Shown: positions 4,029 to 48,843 of the stretch, piece by piece
How the letters are laid out: every line of letters begins with the position of its first letter
Numbering within the stretch: position 1 is the first letter of the stretch
NCBI RefSeq assembly: GCF_003130585.1
Contig: NZ_QFKX01000001.1
Span: 806,001 to 870,000 of the forward strand
DNA length: 64,000 nucleotides
From: Brachybacterium endophyticum
GTDB taxonomy: Bacteria; Actinomycetota; Actinomycetes; Actinomycetales; Dermabacteraceae
Reading direction: 5' to 3'
The notes under the pieces: generated by a model
Seen by the model: only the letters and a program-made list of their open reading frames with translations
The model's database searches: none
Told to the model about the DNA's origin: nothing
Made by a program: the position numbers and the translations under genes

Positions 4029-5642
4029 GTGACAGATACCGACGCCCGGCCCGTCCTCGTCGTCGACTTCGGCGCTCAGTACGCGCAGCTGATCGCACGC
4101 CGTGTCCGCGAGGCCCAGGTCTACTCCGAGATCGTTCCGCACACCGCCTCCACGCAGGACATCCTCGCCAAGGATCCGCGTGCGATCATCCTCTCCGGCG
4201 GCCCCTCCTCCGTCTACGCCGACGGCGCCCCGCGCCTGGACCCGGCACTGCTCGAAGCGGGTGTGCCCGTGCTGGGCCTGTGCTACGGCTTCCAGGCGAT
4301 GGCCGCGGCCCTGGACGGCACGGTCTCGCCGACCGGTGTGCGCGAGTACGGCGCCACCCGGCTCGAGGCCGTGGACGCCGCCAGCGAGCTGCTGCACGAG
4401 CAGGACATCGACCAGAACGTGTGGATGAGCCACGGCGACTCCGTGACCGAGGCCCCCAGCGGCTTCAGCGTGGTCGCGACCTCGTCGGCCTCCCCGGTCG
4501 CAGCCTTCGAGGACCCGGACAAGCACCTCTACGGCGTGCAGTGGCACCCCGAGGTCGGTCACTCCGACCGCGGCCAAGAGGTGCTCGAGAACTTCCTCTA
4601 CCAGGGAGCCGGGATCGCCCCCGAGTGGACCACCGGCAGCGTCATCGACGAGCAGGTCGCCCGCGTGCGCGAGCAGATCGGCGAGGGCACCGCGATCTGC
4701 GGGCTCTCCGGCGGGGTGGACTCCGCGGTCGCCGCGGCCCTCGTGCAGAAGGCCATCGGCGACCGTCTCACCTGCGTGTACGTGGACCACGGTCTGATGC
4801 GCCTGAACGAGTCCGAGCAGATCGAGAAGGCCTTCGGGGAGTCCACCGGCGGCGCGAAGCTCGTGGTCGTCGACACCGAGGAGCAGTTCCTCACGGCGCT
4901 CGAAGGGGTCACCGATCCCGAGCAGAAGCGCAAGATCATCGGCCGCGAGTTCATCCGCACCTTCGAGCGCGCCCAGGCCGACATCCTGCGCGAGCGCGGC
5001 GTCATCGAGGGCGAGGGCTCGCAGGCGCACACCTCGGCCGAGGGCGGCACCAAGACCTTCCTGGTCCAGGGCACCCTGTACCCCGACGTCGTCGAGTCCG
5101 GCGGCGGCGAGGGCGCGGCGAACATCAAGAGCCACCACAACGTGGGCGGCCTTCCCGACGACCTCTCCTTCGAGCTCGTCGAGCCGCTCCGCACCCTGTT
5201 CAAGGACGAGGTGCGCGCCGTGGGCGCCGAGCTCGGCCTGCCCGACGGCATCGTCTGGCGCCAGCCTTTCCCGGGGCCCGGCCTGGGCATCCGCATCATC
5301 GGCGAGGTCACCCGGGAGCGCCTGGACGTGCTGCGCCGGGCCGACGCGATCGCCCGCGAGGAGATGAAGGCCGCCGGGCTGGACCGCGAGATCTGGCAGT
5401 GCCCCGTGGTGCTGCTGGCCGACGTGCGGTCCGTGGGCGTGCAGGGCGACGGCCGCACCTACGGCCACCCGATCATGCTGCGCCCCGTCACCAGCGACGA
5501 CGCCATGACCGCCGACTGGGCGAAGCTCCCCTACGAGGTGCTGGGCCGCATCTCCACCCGCATCACCAACGAGGTCGCCGAGGTCAACCGCGTGGCCGTC
5601 GACATCACGAGCAAGCCCCCGGGCACCATCGAGTGGGAGTGA
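4029..5642 (+). CDS. guaA: GMP synthase (glutamine-hydrolysing)
   Basis: Amidates XMP to GMP using glutamine and ATP, the last step of guanine nucleotide synthesis. The 537 residues are the normal length. An N-terminal class I amidotransferase domain shows [16 protein letters not shown], the nucleophile motif GLCYGFQAM, and the partner histidine and glutamate in GVQWHPEVG. The ATP-pyrophosphatase domain begins with the PP-loop [12 protein letters not shown]. The C-terminal dimerisation domain includes [13 protein letters not shown] and ends in KPPGTIEWE, the invariant GuaA C-terminus. The GTG start follows a -10 hexamer directly. A gene-free gap with a large palindrome lies downstream, before a convergent gene. 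Confidence 0.98.
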
Positions 5643-5972
5643 GGCCGGGCCGGTGACGTCGCCGGGCGACGACCGGGTGGTGGCCGTCCGGCCGCGGCCG
5701 GGGCGCCGTCGTCGTCGGGCCGCCGTCGCCGGGGCGCCGTCATCGGGGCGCCACCTGGTCGCCGTGTCGGCGGCTTGTCGTCCGAGCCGTAGGCCGGCCG
5801 GGCCTCCGAGGGACTAATAGCGCATCATCTGCCATATATGGCAGATGATGCGCTATTAGTCCCTTCGCGGCCCGATCCGGACGCCGCAGCCGCGGGCGGG
5901 CCCGCCTACGCCTGGGCGTCGCTCACCCCTCAGTGCCCTCACTGCCCGCAGGCCCCGCAGCGCCCCCGCCGC
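5643..5972. other. Gene-free convergent gap, GC-rich repeats plus palindrome
   Basis: About 330 bp between the stops of guaA (plus) and the GNAT gene (minus). The first 165 bp is extremely GC-rich with imperfect repeats of GGGGCGCC and CCGTCGTCG. Then comes the perfect palindrome at 5810-5863, then about 110 bp with no recognisable feature. A plus-strand ORF begins at the palindrome centre, but it has no ribosome site or family resemblance and is not called. No convincing terminator other than the palindrome is visible. Confidence 0.7.
5810..5863. repeat. Perfect 54-bp palindrome with no loop
   Basis: Positions 5810-5836 are the exact reverse complement of 5837-5863: 27 bp per arm, no mismatch and no spacer. 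The outer end reads GGGACTAATAGCGC and the centre TGCCATATATGGCA. Its composition is close to half AT, in contrast with the very GC-rich DNA on both sides. It sits between the ends of two convergent genes, so a bidirectional terminator is one possibility. The absence of a loop and of a GC-rich stem is unlike the other terminators in this window. A protein-binding site or a small mobile palindromic element is equally possible. Confidence 0.97.
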
Positions 5973-7085
5973 CTACTCTCCCTCGACCCCCTCCGGCTCC
6001 AGGAGCCGCGAGGCGTGGGCCGAGGCGTCGGCGTGCCAGGACTGCGTGCGCTCGAACGTCTCCCAGCCCATCGACGTGTAGAGGCCGTCGGCGCCGGTGG
6101 GTGAGTCGGCGTCGACCTCGAGGTCGACGTGGTCGCGCCCGCGACGGGCGGCGTCGGCGATGGCGGCGTGCAGCAGGGCCTTGGCGACCCCGTGGCCGCG
6201 TGCGCTGCGGTGCACCCCGAGGTAGTCGAGGTAGGTGCCCTCGCCGAGGCTGCCGTGGGCGGGGGAGGTGGAGGCGACCAGACCGCCGGCGGGCAGCCAG
6301 CCGCCCTCGTCCTCCCCGTGGTCGACCTCGGCGATCCACCACAGGTCCCAGTCGGCCGTGCGGGGCGCCTCGAGCAGGCGCTGGGAGAACTCCGCGAAGG
6401 ATTCGCGGTAGGAGCTGAAGTGGTCCGCGAAGGACTCCTCGAGCATCCGGTGCACGCTGCGCACGTCCTGGGCGAGAGGCAGGCCCGAGGGATGACGGTG
6501 CACCCGGCGCACGCGGACCGACGGACGCGGGGCGGGGAGCGACGTGGCCTCCTCCGCGCGGGTGGGCCGGCGCATGTGGAGCCAGGTGCGCACCTGCTCG
6601 AGCCCGCCGGCTGCGAGCTGGGCGGCGCCGTCGGTATCCCGTTCGTCGATGTCGGCGGTCAGCTGGGTGGTCTCGACGCCGCGATGGCGCGCGAAGGAGC
6701 CCGCGACCTCGAACGCCCAGGTCATCAAGGTGGATGCGAGCTCCTGGCGCACGGGCGCGTCCGGGGCGATCACCCACTGCAGATCGGTGCGCCCGCGGGC
6801 GCGGTCCTCCAGGGCGATCCAGGCCAGGGGTGCCGCCTCGAGCGATGCGGTGCCGTCGGCCTCGGCGGGGACGATCACCACCTGCCGACGGGACCACGAG
6901 TGCAGCCCGACCATGCGGGAGCGCAGGTCCTCGACGTCCAGCGGGGTCTCCGGATCGATGGTGTCCAGGTGCGCGCGCAGCAGGCCGGCGACCCCGTCGA
7001 CATCGCTCTCGATCGGGACGCGGGAGGCCAGCGGGGCGCCAGGGGAGTCGGGGAGGCGAGGGGGGAAATGGTCGGTCAGCAGCAC
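5973..7085 (-). CDS. Two-domain GNAT N-acetyltransferase
   Basis: A 370-residue protein with two tandem GNAT-type domains, a layout shared with mycothiol synthase-like and other actinobacterial acetyltransferases. The C-terminal domain keeps the acetyl-CoA pyrophosphate loop (VHRSARGHGVAKALL) preceded by TYLDYLGV; the N-terminal domain is degenerate. The substrate cannot be told from the sequence. The GTG start at 7085 was preferred because AACGAT ends 6 nt upstream and because upstream residues are low-complexity. The gene converges on guaA. It is not adjacent to mycothiol genes, so an MshD role is not supported. Confidence 0.78.
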   Translation of the reverse strand: MLLTDHFPPRLPDSPGAPLASRVPIESDVDGVAGLLRAHLDTIDPETPLDVEDLRSRMVGLHSWSRRQVVIVPAEADGTASLEAAPLAWIALEDRARGRTDLQWVIAPDAPVRQELASTLMTWAFEVAGSFARHRGVETTQLTADIDERDTDGAAQLAAGGLEQVRTWLHMRRPTRAEEATSLPAPRPSVRVRRVHRHPSGLPLAQDVRSVHRMLEESFADHFSSYRESFAEFSQRLLEAPRTADWDLWWIAEVDHGEDEGGWLPAGGLVASTSPAHGSLGEGTYLDYLGVHRSARGHGVAKALLHAAIADAARRGRDHVDLEVDADSPTGADGLYTSMGWETFERTQSWHADASAHASRLLEPEGVEGE

Positions 7086-7176
7086 CGCCCTATCGTTGCA
7101 CGATGCGTCGGCCTCCTCGGCCTCCTCGGCCGACCTGCCCCCGCTCTCGGGACGGCCCCGCCTCCCCGGGAGCACT

Positions 7177-13510: not shown

Positions 13511-13596
13511 GGGGGCTCCTTCGGGGAGGGGATGCGCGCCCGTCGTTGTGACGCGACGCACACCACTGTAGGGCCGGGCATCCCCGCGCAGGACGG

Positions 13597-13630
13597 GAAC
13601 GGCCCCCGGGGGATCCCCCGGGGGCCGTTC
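13597..13630 (-). terminator. 34-bp palindromic terminator after gpmA
   Basis: A perfect palindrome with arms GAACGGCCCCCGGGGGA lies about 50 nt past the gpmA stop and before the C39 peptidase start. As RNA it would form a very GC-rich hairpin with a tight centre (GATC). Confidence 0.75.
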
Positions 13631-13681
13631 TCCTCGTGCGCGCCGAGCGGTGTCGGCGCCGGCGTCGGCGTCTGGTCCGCC

Positions 13682-17454: not shown

Positions 17455-17520
17455 CCGATGGCTCCTGGTGAGGTCTCAACCGCTGTGAGAACGTGAGCCC
17501 TCACCACGAGCCATCGAACG
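17455..17520. repeat. 66-bp hairpin repeat, copy 1
   Basis: It matches copy 2 (18856-18921) at 62 of 66 positions in the same orientation. Arms CGATGGCTCCTGGTGAGG (17456-17473) and its complement (17499-17516) pair over 18 bp with one mismatch. Inside, TCTCA and TGAGA can form a second small stem. The two copies lie on either side of the DUF559 nuclease-like gene, 1401 bp apart start to start. Confidence 0.95.
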
Positions 17521-17669: not shown

Positions 17670-18620
17670 TCAGCCCAGGCGCTCGACCGCGCGTCGCCCG
17701 TGGGGACCGAGCAGGCGGATCGTGTCACGCACGGCGAGCTGCGTGGCCTGCCAGTCGTGCCAGATCTGGTCGTAGCTGAGACGGAGCGTCTGCAGGCCGA
17801 GCCGGCGCAGCGCGAGATCGCGTCGCCGATCGCGGTCGAATGCGCCGGGGAGACTGTGCGGGCCGCGGCCGTCGATCTCGAGGAAGATCCCTCCCCCGTA
17901 GGCGTCCACGAATCCGACGTCCTCGACGAAGACCTGCTGCTCGACGCGGTAGCCGAGCCGTCGGAGCATCCTCACCACCCGTGTCTCGGATCCCGATCCG
18001 CTGGCGTCGGAGAGCCGTCCGATGCGGGATCTCAGATGGTCGGGCAGCGCTTCGACGATCGCAGCGATCTCCTCCGGGGTTCTGCGATTCTCGGCGAGGA
18101 CTGATTCGAGGACGATCGACGCCGATTCCCCGTCGAGACATCGCGCAGCGTGCGCGAGGCTGAGGTCGAGGGAGGCCACGAGGTCCTGCTCCGGCCAGGT
18201 CCTGAAATGGGCCGCGGGTGGAGGACGACGCCTGGCCCAGATGCGTGCGAGCGGGGGGGAGTAGAGATGCCGTCGGGAGATCTGATCCGCCGACGGCTCC
18301 GGCGTCCATACCTGGTGGCGCATCAGCGCGTCCCTGCAGGTGATCCTGGCGGATGCCCGAGCGGCGGTCACCACCTGCGGATCAGCATCGGGTCGGGCGT
18401 AGATGCCACGTGCGACCCGACGCAGGCGTCCGTCGGCCAGGCCCTTGCGAATCTCTGCCGCCGGCACGTCGGCCTCCACGAGCTGTGACCGGGTGAACAC
18501 GCCCAACGTGGCGGGCGACAGACGATCCTCGCGCGGATCGGCGGGGTGCGGCCGCTTCCACGGGAGTGCTCGGCTCGGAACTGCCATGGTGCTGGCGGTG
18601 TGCAGAGGGAGGGCAGTCAT
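17670..18620 (-). CDS. AbiEi/DUF559-type nuclease-like protein
   Basis: A 316-residue protein of a family very common in actinobacteria. Near residue 40 there is an AbiEi-like winged helix (GVFTRSQLVEADVPAAEI, then LRRVARGIYARP). The C-terminal ~100 residues resemble DUF559/Vsr-type endonucleases: FVDAYGGGIFLEIDGRG, an Arg-rich helix, then LGLQTLRLSYDQI. The carboxylates in VDAY and EIDG could bind metal. The start is uncertain: ATG 18620 is used, ATG 18587 is possible, and the frame stays open to 18905 inside the repeat through a Ser/Asp/Pro-rich stretch. No toxin partner gene is adjacent. Flanking hairpin repeats and low-complexity DNA suggest an acquired segment. Confidence 0.7.
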   Translation of the reverse strand: MTALPLHTASTMAVPSRALPWKRPHPADPREDRLSPATLGVFTRSQLVEADVPAAEIRKGLADGRLRRVARGIYARPDADPQVVTAARASARITCRDALMRHQVWTPEPSADQISRRHLYSPPLARIWARRRPPPAAHFRTWPEQDLVASLDLSLAHAARCLDGESASIVLESVLAENRRTPEEIAAIVEALPDHLRSRIGRLSDASGSGSETRVVRMLRRLGYRVEQQVFVEDVGFVDAYGGGIFLEIDGRGPHSLPGAFDRDRRRDLALRRLGLQTLRLSYDQIWHDWQATQLAVRDTIRLLGPHGRRAVERLG

Positions 18621-18855: not shown

Positions 18856-18921
18856 CCGATGGTTCCTGGTGAGGTCTCAACCGCTGTGAGAGCTTGAGCC
18901 CTCACCAGGAGCCATCGAACG
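18856..18921. repeat. 66-bp hairpin repeat, copy 2
   Basis: This is the direct-orientation partner of 17455-17520, with four substitutions. Here the arms CGATGGTTCCTGGTGAGG and CCTCACCAGGAGCCATCG pair fully apart from one T-G wobble. The mismatch is at a different position from that in copy 1, so structure is kept while sequence drifts. Confidence 0.95.
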
Positions 18922-46900: not shown

Positions 46901-48843
46901 CCCCGCACGTGCCCCTGCTGCGCGACCCGCGACCGGCGACGTCCGCGCTGCGGGCCTTCGCGCAGCGCCGCGGTCTCGTGGGCGAGGCGCTCTCCACCCC
47001 GAGCCCCTCGGTGACCGATCCCGACCGGCTGGTCGTGGTCGAGAACGCACGGGGAGCCGTCCCCACCGGCAGCGAGCTCGTCGAGAGCACCGAGGCCGAG
47101 CTGCGCCGAGTCACCGACCTCGTGATCGAGCACGCCCGTCACCGCCCCGAGCACTCGCTCGCCGTCTTCACCCTCACCGCCGAGCACGCCCGCAAGGTCA
47201 TGGAGAGGATCATGCACACCGTCTCGGTGGTGCCCGGGCTGCGCGAGTTCTTCGATGCCGGCAGCGCCGAGTACTTCACCGTGCTCCCCGCCTCGCGCGC
47301 ATCGGGCGTGGTGCGCGACGAGGTCATCGTGTCGCTGGGCTTCGGGAAGACGCCGCACGGCCGGCTGCTGCACCGCTTCGGCCCGCTCTCCGCGCCTGAC
47401 GGCCGCAAGGCCCTCGCGACCGTGCTCACCCGCGCGCGGGGCCGCACCACCGTGGTCTCCGCCTTCGACGTCGAGGATCTCGATCCCTCGCGCCTGAAGA
47501 GCGATGGCGCGCGCGACCTGCGTGCGATGCTCGTCGTCCTCCACGGCGGCGCCGACGAGGCGATCAGCGCCACGGGTCCCGCGACGCAGGGCCCGCGGGA
47601 CCATGACGAGGCGGCGGTCCGGGAGGACTCGGGACCGCAGTCAACGGACCTCGCCCACGAGGAGCCCGCTCCGGGGGATCCCGGGGCGAGCGCGGGCGGC
47701 CAGACCGCGTCCGAGGTCGAGGCCGAGGTCGACGCGGGATCCGTCGACGATCAGATCGAGGCAGCCCTCGCCGCTGCCGACGCCGATGCTGATGCCCAGG
47801 CGCCGGCACCCACGGCGGCGGACGTGGAGACGGGCTCGGGAACTGCCGAGGCCGAGAACGGGTCCGCCGGGAGCGGTGCGACCGCGTCCGATCCAGCGGC
47901 ACCCCGTTCCCCGGGATCCGTGTCCGCAGGCTCCGTCGCCGTCGGGGCTCCCGGCGCCGAGGGCGTCGAGGGCGTCGCGGACGACCCGGCCGAGGAGAGG
48001 GACGCCGAGGCGCCCACCCCCGAGGCATCTGCTCCGGCGGCGTCGGAGTCCGGGGCTCCCGGCACCGATGCAGCGCTCCCTGCGGAGACCGTTGCCGACG
48101 CCCCCGCCGGGGATGAGGACTCGGACGGGACGTCCGAGGGAGCGTCCGACACTGCCGACACTGCCGACACTGCCGATACTGCCGGCACTGCCGACGCCAC
48201 GGAATCCGACGCCGAGACGGAGGACGCCGTCTCCGCGCCCGCACTGGAGACGAACGCTCTGGTCAACGACCTCGCGGATCGTCTGTGGCGACTCGGCCTC
48301 GTGGTCGAGACCGACTTCGGGGAGACCTCGGACCGTATCGACCTGGCCCTCGGCCACCCCGACCTGCCCGGCCGCTACCTGCTCGCCGTCGACACCGACG
48401 GGGAGCAGTACGTCGCGACCGCCGGGCAGCGCGAGCGGGACCGGCTGCGGGCCGAGCGGCTCGAGGCGGCCGGCTGGGCGACCGAGCGCGTGTGGTCCTG
48501 GGCTCTGTTCATCGATCCCGACGGCGAGGCGGACCGGATCCGCCGCGGCGTCGACCGTGCGCTCCTGCTCTACCGCACCGAGGCCGAGCAGGCCGCGCTC
48601 GAAGGAACCGGGGGAGCGCGTCACCGGCTGCCGCGGCCGCAGATCCCGGCCGGGCACCCGCTCGAGTTCTACTCGAGCGAGGACTTCGACGAGGTCGTGG
48701 AGTACATCGCCTCCGACGGCCGCGCCCGGCTCGAGGACCACCTGGCGGCCGAGGTGCGCAGCTTCCTCGGGTTCACGCAGCGCTCCGTGCTGCTGGACGT
48801 CTCGGTCAGCAGCGCCATCCGCCGCTTCCAGGAACGGCAATGA
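43987..48843 (+). CDS. Giant SF1-helicase-like protein with degenerate ATPase and nuclease-like end
   Basis: A 1618-residue protein shaped like DUF4011/SF1 helicases (family name by resemblance). It opens with a low-complexity segment, then a helicase body with long helical middle. The expected Walker A (GPPGTGKT) reads SAPPGTDPIDF near residue 385, with the catalytic Lys absent. The expected DEAS/DEAQ box reads LLIVADGGRLP near 925. Later motifs remain better preserved: VIVSLGFGKTPHGRLLHRFGP, then VLTRARGR. After a 220-residue Ala/Asp/Glu linker (with a 9-nt tandem repeat) comes a Vsr-like nuclease domain. Its signature is DRIDLALG, LLAVDTDGEQYV, RERDRLRAERLEAAGW; the usual ECDG-x-Y-H is DTDG-x-Q-Y. 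ATG 43987 is 7 nt after TAGCGT. It probably binds nucleic acid or a partner without helicase activity. Confidence 0.75.
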   Translation: MWRLLRGKKHADEGRDAVRGASQEGPGSRAEDHDQAAAAAAPDARSSRPGSVRSGASAASADPADTGVHISIQHRLGPTGADVAPVQEEDSLPRRRVDDAPLSRPDRVGSALDRWMLQIAGTRNEPSFLTRMRAGEHVLDLTHCHPSGLAQLLAGRGPTRLSSLVREVGALADARAEARAIREIAERQAEEVGLSTCHLGIGEATWIPEEGGEPFHAPVLVRPITLRLRGSAREDVDLDLDATVDVNPVLLRALREAGIAVDARALLATTEGPYGFDPTPVIDAFKSLGQPLPGFRVAQALVIGNLMDAAGQLVEDLRTEPAEWADSDLVAALAGDPEARAAITARSEQAPAAPEESDMVTALSPDRMNVLAHVLGGADLAVSAPPGTDPIDFVIDLAAEANARGKSVLVVSQRRRNLAHLASIARERGLEDLVFDLSPDPSLQRNASQALLHSLRRAGSFSAPVSTEVPQELAETRSILSGHVEAMHRIQQPWNASAHDALSALAALTRMRPAPRTEVRLGADVAATMVGEDRERGAEALREAARIGVLSIGPDDTAWYGARITSDTQAEHALALVGRLRETLLPQLRRVIERTGPAIGLSEARTLEAMIARVQLLHRVRGVLSVFQSAVFNAPLDDLIAATAEKDWRREHGVVMSFTTRRRLRKEAAALQRPASLAPDLHDSLRTVRSVRDEWRAADGGSGASPSVPDTLENAEQVLEKLQSLCDELAVLLEGTPAGGALTRTDVDELAARADDLHADRSDLVELPRRTTLLRSLAADGLGDLVEDLRSRGVREKHVGAELDLAWWQSVLELIARAEPTISQYDGTSLSQVAERFRRLDAEHMERAAYRVRGASDDRLVSTMKTFPDTSRAAIAELARSSTVSVRDLAAKYEDILFAARPTWLASPYLVPQVVPRGRHFDLLIVADGGRLPTAAALPAIARADQTVVIGDVLDHAEFEGPVLLDDMLEVAPHVPLLRDPRPATSALRAFAQRRGLVGEALSTPSPSVTDPDRLVVVENARGAVPTGSELVESTEAELRRVTDLVIEHARHRPEHSLAVFTLTAEHARKVMERIMHTVSVVPGLREFFDAGSAEYFTVLPASRASGVVRDEVIVSLGFGKTPHGRLLHRFGPLSAPDGRKALATVLTRARGRTTVVSAFDVEDLDPSRLKSDGARDLRAMLVVLHGGADEAISATGPATQGPRDHDEAAVREDSGPQSTDLAHEEPAPGDPGASAGGQTASEVEAEVDAGSVDDQIEAALAAADADADAQAPAPTAADVETGSGTAEAENGSAGSGATASDPAAPRSPGSVSAGSVAVGAPGAEGVEGVADDPAEERDAEAPTPEASAPAASESGAPGTDAALPAETVADAPAGDEDSDGTSEGASDTADTADTADTAGTADATESDAETEDAVSAPALETNALVNDLADRLWRLGLVVETDFGETSDRIDLALGHPDLPGRYLLAVDTDGEQYVATAGQRERDRLRAERLEAAGWATERVWSWALFIDPDGEADRIRRGVDRALLLYRTEAEQAALEGTGGARHRLPRPQIPAGHPLEFYSSEDFDEVVEYIASDGRARLEDHLAAEVRSFLGFTQRSVLLDVSVSSAIRRFQERQ
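48151..48195 (+). repeat. 9-nt tandem repeat inside the linker
   Basis: Five units of ACTGCCGAC (two with one substitution each) encode Asp-Thr-Ala repeats in the low-complexity linker of the giant helicase-like gene. The length of this run is likely to vary between strains. Confidence 0.9.

Follow-up and report, generated by a model that had tools for sequence, protein, structure and literature searches.

Why does a perfect 54-bp palindrome lie between two convergent genes in a Brachybacterium genome? The palindrome occupies positions 5810-5863 of a 64,000-nucleotide stretch of Brachybacterium endophyticum DNA (contig NZ_QFKX01000001.1; this whole stretch is called the window, and its positions are used below), in the gap between guaA and a GNAT-type gene. 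We consider that it is a copy of a small dispersed element and probably the DNA partner of a homing-type endonuclease, in a system resembling that of repetitive extragenic palindromes (REPs) and their REP-associated tyrosine transposases (RAYTs). The elements are dispersed, have a fixed 74-bp architecture with covarying arms, form species-specific families, and flank many nuclease genes on both sides. In most of the genomes compared, the dispersed copies match the flanks of their own nuclease gene. The position of elements on both sides of the nuclease gene suggests a selfish palindrome-nuclease partnership, with an enzyme unlike those of the known REP/transposase pairs.

The element and the two genes around it are as follows.
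5810-5863, no strand: perfect palindromic core of 54 bp, identical to its own reverse complement at all 54 bases, without a spacer
5800-5809, no strand: left outer arm, made of the tip GGGC and a 6-nt imperfectly paired zone, conserved in 25 aligned copies
5864-5873, no strand: right outer arm, made of a 6-nt imperfectly paired zone and the tip GCCC, conserved in 25 aligned copies
4029-5642, plus strand: open reading frame upstream of the palindrome, guaA (GMP synthase; name from the earlier reading, no family search)
5973-7175, minus strand: convergent open reading frame of GNAT type (name from the earlier reading, no family search)

The palindrome is separated by 168 bp from the guaA stop before it and by 110 bp from the point where the convergent GNAT gene ends. 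A sequence-only reading of the window had described it as loopless, without mismatch, and atypical in composition. Both points were borne out: the 54 of 54 bases agree with the reverse complement, and the G+C content is 48% in the core against 72% across the window. By our own arithmetic with uniform bases, about 4e-12 such palindromes would be expected by chance in 64 kb. The longest inverted repeat reported in the window has this palindrome as its core. Because the imperfect 10-bp outer arms are conserved in other copies, the element was taken as 74 bp (5800-5873). In the following, G-numbers denote genomes (G000 is the window's own) and L-numbers the loci compared. Type A denotes the 74-bp family of the 54-bp palindrome together with the nuclease that it encloses, and family 2 is a second family in G000.

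The earlier reading had held that many copies of the 27-base arm at gene ends would point to a dispersed element. With up to three mismatches, the arm matched 45 times in G000, all inside 25 palindromic copies, and a covariance model recognised 28 places (56 matches on both strands). By crude gene calls, the 25 copies lie between convergent (11), co-directional (9) and divergent (5) gene pairs. The genus set comprised 38 Brachybacterium genomes including G000, with G030 being Brachybacterium halotolerans. Two covariance models with rough E-values, R1 and R2, were used; R2 was built on 44 copies from eight genomes, which form alignment A2 and were drawn from the 60 copies read up to that stage. 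The copies read are a portion of the R2 matches, taken among the matches listed. Related elements were found by R1 in 8 of the 38 genomes and by R2 in 25 (G000 counted in both), four of these having just one or two matches. Under stricter filters, R2 matched 14 genomes in a sample of 297 from the order; 10 of the 14 belong to Brachybacterium. The four others, from three genera (G149, G259, G146 and G267), were not accepted; the G146 match did not centre as a palindrome, and the G267 match looks like a real one. The families are related between species yet different in sequence. A 23-base arm with up to three mismatches matched in none of 57 relatives. No match was obtained for the exact 23-mer arm in a collection of genome contigs, for a 36-mer in viral contigs, or by blastn against plasmids and phages, collections from which own or near records may be absent; the sequences also differ between species. 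An 18-mer from the core gave 13 stretches in the genome contigs, seven from Brachybacterium halotolerans and six from unrelated records, which were taken as chance.

Two elements in G000, at C11:292281 and C11:293559, are 1.3 kb apart and enclose one gene of 306 amino acids, the type-A nuclease. Only one pair among the 28 copies is spaced more closely, at 184 bp, and no gene was called between its members. In G026 and G030, the orthologues are likewise enclosed by elements. DNA identity between G000 and G026/G030 is 68-69% in the nuclease gene, 89-90% in the next gene on one side, and 83-86% in the matching stretch on the other side. The type-A protein matched PF18741 (REase_MTES_1575, E 6e-7) and, weakly, DUF559; neither match reached the curated cut-off. 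It gave no match in NCBIfam or by phmmer against the PDB, and no AbiEi domain was found by Pfam at E up to 1. Its nuclease domain has a predicted Vsr/EDxHD fold, and the closest solved domain is that of I-Bth0305I.

The enclosure of nuclease genes extends beyond these three genomes. Over 30 nuclease loci, R2 (whose alignment already contained the G026 and G030 nuclease flanks) found a flanking element on each side in 8 and on a single side in one further locus, plus one match at E 1.8. A model-free palindrome scan of 50 nuclease loci found palindromes on both sides in 11; beyond these, L263 carried a G-run artefact on one side. The flanking palindromes vary in sequence from one genome to another, and the two at a given gene mostly agree. 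The same scan of 29 GNAT loci gave 7 palindromes in 6 loci, none on both sides. We also scored repeats common to the two 500-bp flanks of a gene, with a threshold of 22. In Brachybacterium, 32 of 48 nuclease loci scored at least 22. Among the comparisons, this score was reached by 0 of 28 GNAT loci, by 13 of 300 cross pairs and by 3 of 95 near-far pairs. Short flanks had led to the exclusion of 3 of 51 nuclease loci, and the own GNAT locus and L174 were left out of 30 GNAT loci. In a sample from the order, all 119 genomes contained PF18741 matches, with 99 of them above the cut-off, and many of the matches belong to long multidomain frames. Since the frames of the best-scoring matches are long and mostly exceed 1000 amino acids, 20 loci of other genera were selected on frame length (about 280-460 amino acids) before their flanks were viewed, and start codons were set to yield about 300 amino acids. 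A flank repeat reaching the threshold was present at 12 of these 20 loci, compared with 1 of 40 near-far pairs. By eye, one or two of those 12 appear to be simple repeats and not palindromes (L369). As a separate observation, the nuclease-flanking repeat of L352 (G114, another genus), GGGGAATAGCGCAAACC...GGTTTGCACTATAACCCC, resembles the Brachybacterium core GGGACTAATAGCGC, and L364 (G127, another genus) has a related repeat.

The element family of a genome tends to follow its nuclease. All 10 genomes whose nuclease is at least 61% identical have R2 matches, against 15 of the remaining 28. Among 78 dispersed copies, 54 had their best match solely in the nuclease flanks of the genome they come from, compared with a mean of 13.8 and a maximum of 23 in 2000 shuffles. 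For this comparison, 22 of 100 copies were excluded: 6 that are nuclease flanks themselves, 14 whose genome had no flank sampled, and 2 from beyond the genus. L074, a copy with a 2-bp deletion at its centre that was mis-centred, is counted as a miss. Confusion of the sister species G026 and G030 accounts for 13 of the 24 misses. R2 found no match in G008, yet the arm taken from its nuclease flanks was found 16 times at 12 places in that genome, two of which are the flanks themselves. The same arm gave 8 matches in 37 other genomes, all with 3 mismatches. The nuclease-flank arm thus predicted a dispersed family in G008, where the models had found none.

The plan of the element is constant across species: a 4-bp tip, a 6-bp zone and 27-bp arms. 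The tip is TGTC/GACA, and GGGC/GCCC in G000; the centre of the arms is palindromic (CATATATG) or a loop (GAAATGCT and others). The arms covary strongly across 44 copies. In a gap-free alignment, 86.6% of the cells paired, against 65.3% when shuffled and 31-43% when slid, and both sides had changed in 343 cells against 143 when shuffled. By part, pairing was 92.6% in the stem, 58.7% in the 6-bp zone and 90.9% in the tips. In the G000 core, likeness was 0.92 between the arms of one copy and 0.83 between copies (0 of 2000 shuffles), and the arms within a copy were likewise more alike in G026, G030 and G017 (0 of 2000 shuffles each). Because arms of one copy exceed the likeness between copies of the same genome, symmetry itself is maintained. 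In the outer zone of G000, the arms were less alike than when shuffled (mid-zone 0.35 against 0.51, with 0 of 2000 shuffles as low); G026, G030 and G017 showed the same direction, not significantly. G000 also has mosaic copies (L064, L065 and others), in which one arm is of the common type and the other arm is different. Sites in G000 and G026/G030 were judged to correspond by flanking DNA in common (L074/L100/L111, L076/L102/L112, L081/L103/L117 and L131/L105/L113). Elements at these corresponding sites carry different sequence, which points to concerted evolution. That arms of variable sequence remain symmetric is consistent with a hairpin or cruciform stage, or with templating from arm to arm.

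From these data, the following mechanism can be proposed. The nuclease combines a DNA-binding winged helix (AbiEi-like, as recognised in the paralogue in the window) with the Vsr/EDxHD-fold domain, and its gene has a complete element on either side, in the manner of a RAYT gene flanked by REPs. It would probably act as a dimer; I-Bth0305I, the closest solved domain, reportedly binds a target of nearly 60 bp in dimeric form. It may recognise the two-fold symmetric core, or its hairpin or cruciform form, and nick or cut there. Repair or template switching from another copy or from the opposite arm would then homogenise the copies within a genome and make the arms symmetric again. Occasionally, the element, or the nuclease gene with both flanking elements, would be copied into another intergenic site. 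Through its mismatched outer zone, the hairpin may acquire a direction.

Several observations weigh against this proposal. The misses in the own-flank comparison, which did not include G028, take in all three copies of G003 and the one of G024. G006 and G059, both fragmented assemblies, carry elements without a nuclease match. Movement was not observed, and different species have several sites in common. No flank repeat was detected at 16 of the 48 Brachybacterium nuclease loci and at 8 of the 20 in other genera. Finally, the AbiEi-like domain leaves room for regulation.

In that regulatory explanation, an AbiEi-like winged helix binds palindromes, and the copies are operators of a regulon or nucleoid sites instead of mobile DNA. 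We regard it as unlikely: the elements stand on both sides of the gene, the 11 copies between convergent genes are where no promoter of a neighbour is expected, and arms that covary where copies vary are unneeded for a simple binding site. The type-A protein, moreover, is the one in which Pfam found no AbiEi domain. A role at the RNA level is also unlikely in our view. The element would then be a strong bidirectional 3'-end hairpin under selection, as a terminator, an mRNA stabiliser or an RNase III site, and its association with the nuclease would be secondary. The same 11 convergent copies speak for it, as does a different long hairpin in the guaA-GNAT gap of several other species. Against it, a terminator as the defining role is unsupported, because the hairpin of the window copy is not followed by a T-run on the plus strand (TTCGCGGCCC) or the minus strand (TCGGAGGCCC), and the neighbouring genes are divergent at 5 of 25 copies. 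Among 2328 core cells of 97 copies, G.T and A.C mismatches were about equally common (73 and 62; transcript orientation unresolved), so there is no sign of RNA-level selection, and Rfam gave nothing in the window but one tRNA. Such a role would also leave the nuclease flanking and the likeness within genomes unexplained. Of the options in the sequence-only reading (terminator, protein-binding site or small mobile palindromic unit), it is the mobile unit that agrees best with the 28 dispersed copies, the lack of an arm match in 57 relatives and the related but different families in 25 of the 38 genus genomes; the terminator is not supported as the defining role, and a protein-binding site is a less likely option.

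Known mobile elements account for the data less well. A miniature inverted-repeat transposable element (MITE) or insertion-sequence remnant, with 37-bp inverted repeats and no interior, could have been moved by a classical transposase; dispersal and tips resembling terminal inverted repeats (GGGC..GCCC, TGTC..GACA) agree with this. We find it improbable, as none of the 45 arm matches in G000 stood apart as the end of an insertion sequence. Target-site duplications gave no signal in the 97 copies (best z 2.2 in 63 tests, k 2-10, seven boundaries), although older copies may have lost theirs; L074 was omitted here and from the mismatch count. No transposase was recognised beside the copies, as judged by eye on partial frames with no family search made. 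A REP or REPIN moved by a Y1 transposase (RAYT/TnpA-REP) would have a genomic arrangement of the same kind. It is nevertheless hardly credible here: PF01797 was found in 0 of the 38 genus genomes, with 5 of 14 control genomes positive, and the GTAG tag is absent.

The palindrome-nuclease partnership can be compared with systems already described. In the parts of the literature available to us, REP/REPINs with RAYT (TnpA-REP), or 'REPtrons', are short dispersed extragenic palindromes that flank a single gene and whose families vary from species to species, and REP-like palindromes with a known partner enzyme go with HUH/Y1 transposases (PMC3733652, PMC3116915, PMC6006769). The Brachybacterium elements are likewise short, dispersed, different between species and placed around a single enzyme gene; unlike in REPtrons, this enzyme has a predicted Vsr/EDxHD fold. 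A REP hairpin measures 20-40 bp and has an unpaired GTAG or CGTC tag, whereas the type-A unit is 74 bp with a paired tip. CGTC-tagged REPs, mainly of Proteobacteria, are apparently without a dedicated transposase, as far as the excerpt available indicates (PMC3733652). They too are dispersed palindromes, and some tips here are CGTC or TGTC; their phyla and size are different, and the unpaired tag is theirs. With I-Bth0305I and Vsr, our nuclease has in common the predicted Vsr-like EDxHD catalytic fold. It differs from them in being a free-standing gene between palindromes with no intron or intein sign, in the winged helix (seen in the window paralogue), and in its many short partner elements. 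The window contains no Rfam intron and the frame of its nuclease is free-standing; type A was judged on gene layout alone. The nuclease domain falls in the REase_MTES_1575 (PF18741)/DUF559 group, the former presented as a novel Vsr REase fused to HEPN and other domains, with no link to palindromic repeats in the portion of the paper available (PMC3710099). In the open-licence literature accessible in part, we found no paper linking Vsr/EDxHD/DUF559 nucleases to dispersed palindromes.

More tentatively, and as a possibility that we hold with less than even confidence, small MTES_1575/DUF559 nucleases of the Vsr/EDxHD type might be a second, non-HUH class of palindrome-mobilising enzymes, with lineage-specific, co-evolving hairpins that are cut as long symmetric or hairpin targets and are spread and homogenised by break-repair copying. 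If so, such nucleases could supply the enzyme that is missing for other 'orphan' palindromic repeats. If the nuclease acts on the elements, short palindromes would have a second, independent route to spread and evolve in concert, a group of small Vsr-like proteins common in actinobacteria would gain a role, and the concerted evolution of dispersed repeats would become directly testable.

The window itself contains a second nuclease with its own flanking elements.
17670-18587, minus strand: second nuclease of 305 amino acids, AbiEi-like winged helix and MTES_1575 (Vsr-like) domain by profile matches
17456-17516, no strand: family-2 palindromic element of 61 bp, 62% G+C, on one side of this nuclease
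18857-18917, no strand: family-2 palindromic element of 61 bp, on the other side

These two hairpins contradict the earlier claim that all other hairpins in the window are GC-rich and shorter. The window nuclease is 30% identical to the type-A nuclease and matched AbiEi_4 (2.2e-7) and MTES_1575 (PF18741, 1.2e-7, below the curated cut-off). Its flank-repeat score was 57 with the end at 18600, against at most 17 for 47 other window genes, and 14 when the frame was begun at 18905 by the open-reading-frame picker. The 17-base arm of family 2, with up to two mismatches, matched 30 times in G000 against 2, 1 and 0 times in G030, G026 and G017; a reversed-pattern control gave 2 in G000 and 1, 2 and 0 in the same three genomes. 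Among the loci fetched, 17 palindromic family-2 copies were found in G000.

The guaA-GNAT gap was located in other species by the C-terminal end of guaA, and the GNAT-type gene has matches in 37 of the 38 genus genomes, part of them weak or partial. G017 was considered as an empty site, as the palindrome is absent there; the right end of the G030 element seems by eye to be kept, so that it looks like a deletion instead. In Brachybacterium halotolerans (L147), the gap holds a different long palindrome with GGCTCCTGGTGAGG in common with family 2 of the window. L153, L161 and L167 (G007, G029 and G018) have another hairpin in common, TGTGAGCTGGGGACC..., possibly a further family or a terminator. 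Two G000 loci (L062 1322-2082 and L079 1380-2082) have about 760 bp in common at 89% identity with one element each, a segmental duplication. Elsewhere in the window, a further long GC-rich hairpin with 29-nt arms (90% complementary) lies at 13585-13642, and a further PF18741 domain (66.7 bits) at 48268-48543 on the plus strand, within an open frame of 1644 amino acids.
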